Below are positions 4,214-8,970 of a DNA stretch of 64,000 bases, in pieces. The stretch spans positions 1-64,000 of the forward strand of contig JAMNXU010000007.1 in assembly GCA_023623175.1 (NCBI GenBank), in the 5' to 3' direction. The position numbers were made by a program, and so were the translations under genes. Under the pieces are notes generated by a model. That model did no database searches and had not been told where the DNA came from. It saw nothing but the letters and a program-made list of their open reading frames with translations. Position 1 is the first letter of the stretch, and each line of letters opens with the position of its first letter. The stretch comes from Bacillota bacterium. GTDB taxonomy: Bacteria > Bacillota > Clostridia > Acetivibrionales > JAMNXU01.

Positions 4214-4642
4214 TTTTACCCCTCCGAATTTATTCATTTTATCTGTCCGATTATATATTATACTAGGCATTACCGGCGTTTCCTCCGCTATTCGGCGCTT
4301 TAAGTCCAAATTTGCCGTTTTTTCGCTCATTTTTGCATATTGATTTATGTTTTTGCCCAAGATTTTGAATATTGAATTATGTTTTTGACCTTGATTAATA
4401 TACACTCTTGTACTCATATGACGTTTATTCCAATTTAATGCTATGATTTCTGCTGGAATACCATGGTTTCTGCTTGCAAAACCTGCACGTTTATGTTTAC
4501 ATAATGCTCAATTTTATTTACATCTCTTTACATAATACATCAATTTTATTTACATAATATGCACGTAGACCGCCGGTTGTTCTGCCACGGAACGGAAAAG
4601 TCGCCAAAAAAGGCACGGGAGACGGGGAATATGAGATTAAAC
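4214..4642. other. AT-rich intergenic DNA with short direct repeats
   Basis: No gene is supported here. Two direct-repeat sets are visible: a phrase ending TTATGTTTTTG recurs near 4340 and 4375, and TTTACATAAT recurs at 4496, 4527 and 4549 with CAATTTTATTTACAT between copies. They resemble the tandem arrays elsewhere in the window. The minus-strand gene at 4213 and the plus-strand topoisomerase operon diverge from this region. Confidence 0.5.
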
Positions 4643-4671
4643 TTGACACGAACATTCGTTTTTTGAATAAT
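4643..4671 (+). promoter_or_regulatory. promoter with embedded LexA-like box, topoisomerase operon
   Basis: A perfect TTGACA -35 (4643-4648), a 17-base spacer and AATAAT as -10 (4666-4671). The first half of the spacer reads CGAACATTCGTTTT (4649-4662), which fits the Gram-positive LexA pattern GAAC-N4-GTT(T/C). A repressor bound there would cover the -35/-10 spacer. This suggests that the GyrB/GyrA-like pair downstream is induced by DNA damage. The promoter is visible; LexA binding is inferred. Confidence 0.7.
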
Positions 4672-4750
4672 TAATATGGAAAACTATGCACGGAGAATTT
4701 TGAAATACAAGAGAAGAAACAAAGAAAACAGCCGTTTAGGTGAGGTACAA

Positions 4751-6727
4751 ATGACAAAACAAAGGAAAGATAACTACGGCAATGACAGCATTTCCGCATT
4801 GAAGGGAGCGGACAGGGTAAGGCTGCGGCCTGGCGTCATATTCGGCTCCGACGGATTGGAAGGCTGCCAGCACTCCTTTTTTGAAATCCTTTCAAACTCC
4901 ATTGACGAAGCCCGCGAAGGCTATGGCGACGTAATTGAGGTAACAAGGTTCAAAGACAAATCCATCATGGTCAGGGACTGGGGCAGAGGCATTCCGCTGG
5001 ACTTTAATCCCAAGGAAAACAGGTATAACTGGGAACTGGTTTTCTGCGAACTTTACGCAGGCGGCAAATACAACACGAACGAGGGCGAAAACTATGAATT
5101 CAGCCTCGGCCTCAACGGGCTCGGAAGCTGCGCTACCCAATACAGTTCCGAGTATTTTGATGTGACGGTATACAGGGACGGGTACAAGTACGAGCTCCAT
5201 TTTGAAAAGGGAGAAAACATCGGCGGGCTTAAAAAGGAAAAGTGCCAGTACGAGCATACGGGCACGATACAGAAATGGAAACCCGACCTCGAAGTCTTCA
5301 CTGACATAAACATTCCCCTTGAGTATTTCCAGGATGTGCTCAAAAAACAGGCTGTAGTGAACCCGGGTCTGTTGTTCAGGCTGTTTGACGAGGAAAGCGG
5401 ACAGACCTTTGAGTATTTCTACGAAAACGGAATCGTGGATTATGTCCGGGAATTGTCCGGAGATAAAGGTTTTACCGAAGTCCAGTATTTTGAAACTTCC
5501 ACCCGCGGAAGGGACAGGGAAGACAAACCTGAATACAGGCTCAAGATACAGGTTGCTTTCTGTTTCAACAATGAAATAAACAAAATTGAGTATTATCATA
5601 ATTCGAGTTTTCTTGAATACGGCGGTTCTCCCGACAGGGCCGTCAAATCAGCGTTTGTGTACGTGATTGACAAATTCCTGAAAGCCCGCGGGAAGTACAA
5701 CAAGGACGAAGCAAAGATTACCTTTGCCGACATACAGGACAGCCTTATCCTGGTCAGTAACTCGTTCTCAACGATTACGAGCTATGAAAACCAGACCAAG
5801 AAGTCCATTACAAATAAATTCATCCAGGAGGCCATGGCCGAATTTCTCAAGCAGCAGCTTGAGGTGTATTTTATTGAGAACATGGCCGAGAGCGAGAAAA
5901 TACTGGAGCAGGTGCTCGTAAACAAAAGGAGCAGGGAAACGGCCGAAAAAACAAGGATAAATGTCAAGAAAAAGCTCGGCGGCGCGGTGGACATCACCAA
6001 TCGCGTAAAAAAATTCGTCGACTGCCGTACAAAGGATATAAACCGGCGCGAACTTTACATAGTGGAAGGCGATTCGGCGCTGGGTTCATGTAAGCTGGGC
6101 CGTGACGCCGAATTCCAGGCCATCATGCCCGTCCGCGGTAAAATATTGAACTGCCTCAAGGCTGGCTATGACGCGATATTCAAAAGCGAAATCATAGTGG
6201 ATTTACTCAAGGTGCTGGGATGCGGAATCGAGATAAAATCAAAACATAACAGGGAGCTTAATACCTTTGATATAAACAATCTTCGCTGGAGCAAGATAAT
6301 CATATGCACCGACGCCGATGTCGACGGTTTCCAGATCAGGACGCTCATACTTGCAATGCTGTACCGGCTGACTCCGACGCTTATCCAGGAAGGCAAGGTA
6401 TACATAGCGGAATCGCCGCTGTTTGAGATAACTACAAAGAACAAGACGTATTTTGCCTATTCGGAAAGGGAGAAAAATGAGATAATATCGAAGATAAACG
6501 GCAAATACACTATACAGCGTTCCAAGGGTCTCGGCGAAAATGATCCCGACATGATGTGGCTTACGACAATGAATCCTGAAACACGGAGACTTATCAAGGT
6601 CCTGCCCGACGACGCGAGGAAAACCGAGGAGATTTTCAACCTCTTCCTCGGCGACAACCTCGAGGGCAGGAAGAGTTATATCGAGGAAAACGGCCACCGC
6701 TATCTTGACATGGTGGACGTCAGCTAA
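4751..6727 (+). CDS. type IIA DNA topoisomerase, GyrB/ParE-like ATPase subunit
   Basis: 658 residues from the ATG at 4751, which follows GAGGT; an in-frame ATG at 4676 has no ribosome site. The GHKL ATPase motifs are present: NSIDEA (49-54), DWGRG (76-80) and a glycine loop LGLNGLGS (119-126). QTK at 348-350 supplies the switch lysine. The TOPRIM domain has EGDSA (439-443) and DADVDG (521-526). The sequence is clearly divergent from housekeeping GyrB, for instance in having N in place of H in the usual GGLHGVG loop and an opening around 'PGVIFGSDG'. It pairs with the A subunit 62 bases downstream. This looks like the extra gyrase/topo IV set found in many Clostridia; whether it supercoils or decatenates cannot be told. 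Confidence 0.88.
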   Translation: MTKQRKDNYGNDSISALKGADRVRLRPGVIFGSDGLEGCQHSFFEILSNSIDEAREGYGDVIEVTRFKDKSIMVRDWGRGIPLDFNPKENRYNWELVFCELYAGGKYNTNEGENYEFSLGLNGLGSCATQYSSEYFDVTVYRDGYKYELHFEKGENIGGLKKEKCQYEHTGTIQKWKPDLEVFTDINIPLEYFQDVLKKQAVVNPGLLFRLFDEESGQTFEYFYENGIVDYVRELSGDKGFTEVQYFETSTRGRDREDKPEYRLKIQVAFCFNNEINKIEYYHNSSFLEYGGSPDRAVKSAFVYVIDKFLKARGKYNKDEAKITFADIQDSLILVSNSFSTITSYENQTKKSITNKFIQEAMAEFLKQQLEVYFIENMAESEKILEQVLVNKRSRETAEKTRINVKKKLGGAVDITNRVKKFVDCRTKDINRRELYIVEGDSALGSCKLGRDAEFQAIMPVRGKILNCLKAGYDAIFKSEIIVDLLKVLGCGIEIKSKHNRELNTFDINNLRWSKIIICTDADVDGFQIRTLILAMLYRLTPTLIQEGKVYIAESPLFEITTKNKTYFAYSEREKNEIISKINGKYTIQRSKGLGENDPDMMWLTTMNPETRRLIKVLPDDARKTEEIFNLFLGDNLEGRKSYIEENGHRYLDMVDVS

Positions 6728-6789: not shown

Positions 6790-8970
6790 ATGAAAAATGA
6801 CAATCTTGTAGAACAAAAGATAATAGAGACTATTGAGTATAATTACATGCCCTATGCCATGAGCGTCATTATTTCCAGGGCGATCCCGGAGATAGACGGA
6901 TTTAAGCCTTCCCACAGGAAGCTGCTGTATACGATGTACAAAATGGGGCTCCTGGGCGGGGCCAGGACCAAGTCCGCCAACGTGGTGGGGCAAACCATGA
7001 AACTGAACCCCCATGGCGACATGGCGATATATGAGACCCTCGTCAGGCTAACAAAGGGCTATGAAGCGCTGCTTCATCCGTTCGTGGATTCCAAGGGTAA
7101 CTTCGGCAAGCACTATTCGAGGGATATGCGTTTTGCCGCGCCCCGTTATACCGAAGTTAAGCTCGACAGGATCTGCGAGGAATTGTTCCGCGACCTCGAC
7201 AAAAATGCGGTGGACATGGTGGACAATTATGACGGCACCATGAAAGAACCCGTACTGCTGCCGACCACGTTCCCGAATGTTTTGGTCAATGCGAACCAGG
7301 GCATAGCCGTGGGTATGGCGAGCAACGTCTGCAGCTTCAATCTCCGGGAGGTGTGTGAAGCCACCATTGCATTCCTCAGGGACGAAAACGCCGACATGCT
7401 CCAGTATCTCAAGGCTCCCGATTTCTCCACCGGCGGTCAGCTTGTATACAACGAAAGAGAAATGAGGGAAATATACGAAACGGGCAGGGGCAGTTTTAAA
7501 CTCAGGGCAAAATACAAGTATGACAAGGCCAACTCGTGCATCGAGGTCTACGAGATTCCCTATACGACAACCTGCGAAGCGATTATTGACGCCATATCCG
7601 ACCTCGTTAAAAACGGAAAAATCAAGGATATAACCGACGTGCGCGATGAAACTGACTTAAACGGTCTGAAAATAACAATTGACATAAGGAAAAGCGCCGA
7701 TCCGGACATGCTGATGTCGAAGTTGTTTAAACTGACAACACTCGAAGATACTTTCAGCTGCAATTTCAATTTCCTGATAGAAGGCCGTCCCAGGGTCCTC
7801 GGAATAAAGCCCCTGCTGAGGGAATGGACAAAATTCAGGATTAACTGTATACGCCGGCAGACCCAGTACGATATTGAAAAAATGTCGGAGAAACTCCATC
7901 TTTTAAAGGGCTTGCAGAAGATACTCCTTGACATAGACAAGGCCATAAGAATCATTCGCGGCACCGAACGCGATGAGCTCGTGGTTCCGAACCTCATGGA
8001 AGGTTTCGGCATAGACCGGGTCCAGGCGGAATTCATAGCTGAAATCAGGCTGCGGAATCTTAACAAGGAATACATATTGAACAGGGTTAATGAAATTGAG
8101 TCCCTGCAAAAAGGCATCGAGGATCTCAAGGACCTCTATGGCAATGAAAAAAGGATAAAGAAAGTCATCATTAAGCAGCTTGAGGAAATAGCGAAGAAAT
8201 ACGGCACTGCGAGAAAAACGGAAATCATTTACCATGACGAAATAGAGAAAATAGAACCCGAGAACCTGATAGAGGATTACAATCTCAAGCTGTTCCTTAC
8301 TGAGCAGAATTATCTCAAGAAGATTCCGCTTGTATCGCTCAGGTCAAATCCTGAACAGAAGCTGAAAGACGACGACAGGATAATACAGGAAATTGAAACC
8401 CGCAACAAGGCCGAGTTGCTTTTATTCTCGTCGAAGCACACGGTGTACAAGCTGCGCATATACGAGATCAGCGATACAAAGGCCAGTTCCCTGGGAGAAT
8501 ACCTCGTCAATGTATTGGGGCTTGAAGAAGATGAGAAAATATTGTATATGGTAGCTACCGAGGATTATAAGGGATACATGCTTTTCGCCTTTGAAAACGG
8601 CAAAGTGGCAAAGGTTGAACTTGCAAGTTACGCAACCAAAACCAACAGGAAAAAGCTTATTAACGCGTACTGCGACATGTCGCCGCTTGTCAGGATAATG
8701 TATATTTCGGAAGACGTTGACCTCGCGGCCTTCAGCAATATCAACAAGGTGGTAGTATTCAACACGTCATTTATTGCGCCCAAGACCACCAGGGACACCC
8801 AGGGGGTCCAGGTGCTGAAATCCAAGAATGGAAGCGTGATGACCGCGATTAAGCTGCTTGATGAAACGGGCATCAAAGACTATGATTATTACAGGGTGAA
8901 GAATATTCCTGCGGTCGGATACTACCTGAGGGACGAAGACACGGAACAGCAGCAGCTGAGCATCATTTAG
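6790..8970 (+). CDS. type IIA DNA topoisomerase, GyrA/ParC-like breakage-reunion subunit
   Basis: 726 residues. The winged-helix/tower region is intact, with 'YAMSVIISRAIPEIDG' at 22-37 and the catalytic tyrosine Y120 in AAPRYTE. A coiled-coil stretch runs from about 355 to 480. The C-terminal third is short and lacks a recognisable GyrA box (QRRGGKG-type), so wrapping-dependent negative supercoiling is less likely and a topo IV-like relaxing or decatenating role is more likely. The start is an ATG with a weak upstream site. It forms an operon with the ATPase subunit and ends just before a 19-bp tandem array. Confidence 0.88.
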   Translation: MKNDNLVEQKIIETIEYNYMPYAMSVIISRAIPEIDGFKPSHRKLLYTMYKMGLLGGARTKSANVVGQTMKLNPHGDMAIYETLVRLTKGYEALLHPFVDSKGNFGKHYSRDMRFAAPRYTEVKLDRICEELFRDLDKNAVDMVDNYDGTMKEPVLLPTTFPNVLVNANQGIAVGMASNVCSFNLREVCEATIAFLRDENADMLQYLKAPDFSTGGQLVYNEREMREIYETGRGSFKLRAKYKYDKANSCIEVYEIPYTTTCEAIIDAISDLVKNGKIKDITDVRDETDLNGLKITIDIRKSADPDMLMSKLFKLTTLEDTFSCNFNFLIEGRPRVLGIKPLLREWTKFRINCIRRQTQYDIEKMSEKLHLLKGLQKILLDIDKAIRIIRGTERDELVVPNLMEGFGIDRVQAEFIAEIRLRNLNKEYILNRVNEIESLQKGIEDLKDLYGNEKRIKKVIIKQLEEIAKKYGTARKTEIIYHDEIEKIEPENLIEDYNLKLFLTEQNYLKKIPLVSLRSNPEQKLKDDDRIIQEIETRNKAELLLFSSKHTVYKLRIYEISDTKASSLGEYLVNVLGLEEDEKILYMVATEDYKGYMLFAFENGKVAKVELASYATKTNRKKLINAYCDMSPLVRIMYISEDVDLAAFSNINKVVVFNTSFIAPKTTRDTQGVQVLKSKNGSVMTAIKLLDETGIKDYDYYRVKNIPAVGYYLRDEDTEQQQLSII

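Follow-up and report, generated by a model that had tools for sequence, protein, structure and literature searches.

A predicted LexA operator within the promoter of a clostridial topoisomerase IV-type operon

LexA control of topoisomerase genes in other bacteria

In Staphylococcus aureus, the parE-parC operon is regulated by LexA and carries the SOS box CGAACGTACGTTTG, whereas gyrase lies outside LexA control (PMC11442139). The parE gene of Streptomyces venezuelae is also a LexA target (PMC9380542); in Lactobacillaceae, parEC has been assigned to LexA by prediction only (PMC3616900). For the clostridia, a study that used both DAP-seq and motif scanning places ‘DNA gyrase B’ (Clo1313_1922), uvrB (Clo1313_1918) and uvrA (Clo1313_1916) in the LexA_1449 regulon of Clostridium thermocellum (PMC8457756); gyrase is unmentioned in the searched text of the LexA papers on C. 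difficile (PMC4234289) and C. acetobutylicum (PMC3828012).

The locus described here, a promoter at positions 4643–4671 followed by genes for a divergent pair of topoisomerase subunits, lies in the window, that is, the whole 64-kb stretch of DNA that was analysed. It resembles S. aureus parE-parC in that a B-A operon for a second type IIA topoisomerase is (by prediction, in the window) under LexA control and gyrase is not; it differs in that the S. aureus proteins are classical ParE and ParC, whereas the window pair belongs to a divergent clostridial subfamily that falls below curated cut-offs. The likeness to Lactobacillaceae parEC and S. venezuelae parE is again that of topoisomerase IV genes placed under LexA (predicted for the window), although the window pair comes from another lineage and another protein subfamily.

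The comparison with C. thermocellum uses a genome (G045) that we take to be that of strain ATCC 27405. Its gene order, gyrB2-gyrA2-..-uvrB-..-uvrA (L239), agrees with the Clo1313 locus numbers of the regulon study, and Clo1313_1922 is therefore the ortholog of the subunit B gene in the window. In the promoter of this ortholog (L074) the box CGAACATAAGTTTT directly follows TTGACA, so the two loci share an orthologous gene (by gene order), the motif and the placement of the box after the −35 element; they differ in that the operon of the window genome is located on a different contig from uvrB and uvrA and in that its box is CGAACATTCGTTTT instead of CGAACATAAGTTTT. The part of PMC8457756 that we consulted names the target as gyrase, does not discuss the layout of its promoter and leaves unstated which method, DAP-seq or motif scanning, yielded the gyrB site. 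The first-pass annotation of the window had regarded damage induction of this enzyme as a distinct stress response; that description has to be withdrawn, because SOS control of topoisomerase IV has precedents: it is documented for parE/parC elsewhere, and for the ortholog in C. thermocellum, a close relative, it has been reported.

The promoter and the topoisomerase pair

The features of the locus are as follows.

4643..4648, + strand: −35 element TTGACA, read directly; in 40 of 42 same-order cases TTGAC stands at most 9 bases 5′ of the box
4649..4662, + strand: predicted LexA operator CGAACATTCGTTTT, within the −35/−10 spacer; motif common to lexA, recA, uvrA and the Pol IV-like gene
4666..4671, + strand: −10 element AATAAT, read directly; many orthologous promoters have something similar to AATAAT at this position
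4751..6727, + strand: gyrB/parE-like subunit B (658 aa) of a divergent clostridial type IIA topoisomerase
6790..8970, + strand: gyrA/parC-like subunit A (726 aa) without the GyrA-box motif, presumed to belong to the same operon

TTGACA and AATAAT are separated by a 17-base spacer, CGAACATTCGTTTTTTG (4649–4665), that begins with CGAACATTCGTTTT; on these points the first-pass annotation was correct to the base. The box has two mismatches to the CGAACRNRYGTTYG form and one to CGAACNNNNGTTYG, and the final G of the consensus is replaced by T. No long reading frame covers it, and its position is one at which RNA polymerase could be blocked. By motif count alone the box is not significant: the pattern GAACNNNNGTTT (GAAC-N4-GTTT) occurs four times in the 64-kb window (2.64 expected). 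Just 5′ of the promoter, at 4490–4570, the window contains imperfect repeats of ATTTTATTTACATAATA.

The promoter ends 80 bases before the start of the subunit B gene, which we place at ATG 4751; this codon is preceded by AGGTGAGG, and homologues align from residues 1–8 of the protein begun there. An ATG at 4676 was rejected as the start because it lies too near the −10 element (4 bases beyond it) and receives no support from homologues.

The subunit B and subunit A genes are separated by 62 bases. Neither protein reaches the cut-off of any curated gyrB, gyrA, parE or parC model, be it one for topoisomerase IV (score/cut-off: parE_Gpos, 422/900; parC_Gpos, 421/813) or one for gyrase (gyrB, 492/882; gyrA, 554/877). 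Subunit B is encoded twice in the genome, by a canonical gyrB (1001 bits) and by the gene in the window, and the window pair is the only second type IIA topoisomerase. None of 100 relatives has a protein that passes the parE_Gpos cut-off, and a motif search of subunit A from the window and from the C. thermocellum locus found no GyrA box (Q[RK]RGG[RK]G) in either protein. With one canonical gyrB, no relative above the parE_Gpos cut-off and no GyrA box, the pair is the sole candidate for topoisomerase IV in these genomes, and to judge from these sequence features it most likely serves as such; the earlier description as an ‘extra’ gyrase is better replaced by this reading.

LexA sites elsewhere in the genome

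The genome encodes LexA (one strong match, 254 bits) and RecA (584 bits). Three boxes with the motif occur at lexA, CGAACATTAGTTTG and CGAACTGGTGTTTG, plus GAACATATGTTT adjoining a divergent yneA-like gene for a LysM protein; these match the motif of the window box and indicate that LexA of this genome uses it. The yneA-like promoter, TTGACA-CAAACACCAGTTCGGTA-TACAAT, has the same layout as that at 4643–4671, with the box inside a 17-base spacer. Boxes are also located at recA (AGAACAAGCGTTCG), at uvrA (CGAACAAACGTTTG) and at the gene for a Y-family (Pol IV-like) polymerase, where CGAACACGTGTTCG forms a perfect palindrome 2.2 kb beyond the end of the window (C5:66194–66207; L028). Palindromes identical to the last are found at C20:106221, before the gene for an 81-aa protein (L031), and at C33:44509, before a 112-aa frame (L035).

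A matrix was trained on the SOS boxes of this genome, with the known sites scored in a left-one-out manner. The other SOS boxes score 10.5–17.4 (recA, 13.9; the lexA/yneA boxes, 15.3, 13.0 and 10.5; uvrA, 15.3; the polymerase gene, 17.4); the window box (14.8) falls between these extremes and is the top 14-mer of the 64-kb window (runner-up, 12.1). The ranking of genome sites draws on pattern searches and individual sequence stretches. The expectation that the site would rank with those of lexA, recA and uvrB holds in part: it scores among the boxes of recA, uvrA, lexA and the Pol IV-like gene, but the 350 bases examined at uvrB contain none. The pattern GAACNNNNGTTY has at least 100 matches in the genome; in the stricter list of near-matches, which is complete, nearly all of those other than SOS-type sites are inside long reading frames. 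An exception is located near a transposase-like gene (L062). The palindrome GAACATATGTTC (L001, ~1501–1512; C1:68853) also lies outside long frames, ~190 bases before a signal-peptidase-like gene, and is a possible further LexA target. A second LexA-like protein (C28:170824–171423; L027) scores 119 bits, just above the family cut-off; many relatives of the order contain similar copies.

Conservation of the box and its interpretation

Orthologs of subunit B share 76–83% identity in nearly all same-order genomes and 63–82% in most other orders of the class. Using the pattern GAAC-N4-GTTY, we found a box within 300 bases upstream of the ortholog in 42 of 55 same-order genomes (the window genome included), compared with 0.5 expected (first-order Markov null, 200 simulations with a mean of 0.5 and a maximum of 2); the count is drawn from related genomes, so the events are non-independent. 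The box-positive genomes span 13 of 15 families. The distance from the box to the gene ranges from 58 to 293 bases in the relatives, and TTGAC occurs within 9 bases 5′ of the box in 40 of the 42; thus, box and promoter move together despite the variable distance. The upstream regions of canonical gyrB contain the box in none of 11 cases.

The box is missing in the remaining 13 same-order genomes, one of which (L089) offers just 113 upstream bases. The absences include most genomes of family f6, the only genome of f7 in which the gene occurs, and the two genomes of f14. LexA is clearly encoded in f6 and f7 and in one of the two from f14; loss of LexA as the cause of the absence in f6 is therefore ruled out.

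Positions 4649–4662 are thus very probably a LexA operator in the promoter of a topoisomerase IV-type operon, as the first-pass annotation proposed in calling this a LexA box. Of the two outcomes that it named as refuting, a different motif for LexA of this organism and a site not conserved before the orthologous pair in related genomes, neither was borne out. What makes the box convincing is its context, that is, the boxes at lexA and the yneA-like gene, its rank in the matrix and its conservation together with the promoter. What we infer is LexA binding, repression and damage induction at 4643–4671, and the topoisomerase IV function of the pair. In undamaged cells, LexA on the operator would hinder RNA polymerase and keep expression of the operon low; RecA filaments formed on single-stranded DNA would then trigger self-cleavage of LexA and free the promoter. 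More of a decatenating and relaxing topoisomerase would be produced, and the added enzyme may help to separate and resolve chromosomes during repair.

The alternative that survives best accepts the operator and doubts its consequence: LexA might bind with small effect and merely trim the level of an essential enzyme, with no meaningful response to DNA damage. Topoisomerase IV is essential where it has been studied, so repression must be incomplete; the promoter has a single box with one mismatch, and several lineages have lost it. Against this, the box directly overlaps the polymerase site and its position is kept across 13 families; we regard so small an effect as rather unlikely. It is highly improbable that the conserved element is the site of another regulator, or contributes to promoter strength, and is no LexA operator: site conservation names no protein, and in most f6 genomes, which do encode LexA, the gene or a TTGAC-type promoter persists while the box is gone, but this genome has the same dyad at recA, at uvrA and three times at lexA, the ortholog is among the targets in the C. 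thermocellum LexA motif study (PMC8457756), and the loss in f6 indicates that the promoter can do without the box as a strength element. Chance resemblance in an ordinary constitutive sigma-A promoter, although the pattern is not rare and the last base of the box is off consensus, deserves equally little credence and is largely refuted by the recurrence of the box at orthologous promoters at variable distances from the gene; the box is also absent from 11 canonical gyrB promoters.

If the site is indeed a LexA operator, the clostridial ‘second gyrase’ joins the topoisomerase IV operons that are known to be controlled by LexA in Staphylococcus and Streptomyces and predicted to be so in Lactobacillaceae; this suggests that Gram-positive bacteria widely couple decatenation to DNA damage. 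A tentative extension, which we consider rather less likely to be right than wrong, is that in this order a LexA operator forms the core of the main promoter for the only topoisomerase IV, that the SOS state sets both the basal capacity for decatenation and the sensitivity to drugs directed at this enzyme, and that this control has been lost in some families that keep LexA and the gene. The families that lost control would, if this is true, amount to an experiment of nature on the reasons for placing decatenation under SOS, and lineages with and without the box make the value of the coupling testable.

Two f6 genomes (L086 and L097) have topoisomerase orthologs with a promoter-like TTGACTT sequence and encode LexA but have no LexA box, an apparent loss of SOS control. 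The box is absent from most other orders of the class; the few positive genomes outside the order include Tepidibacter thalassicus, in which it reads TTGACACGAACATAAGTTTT (L164).
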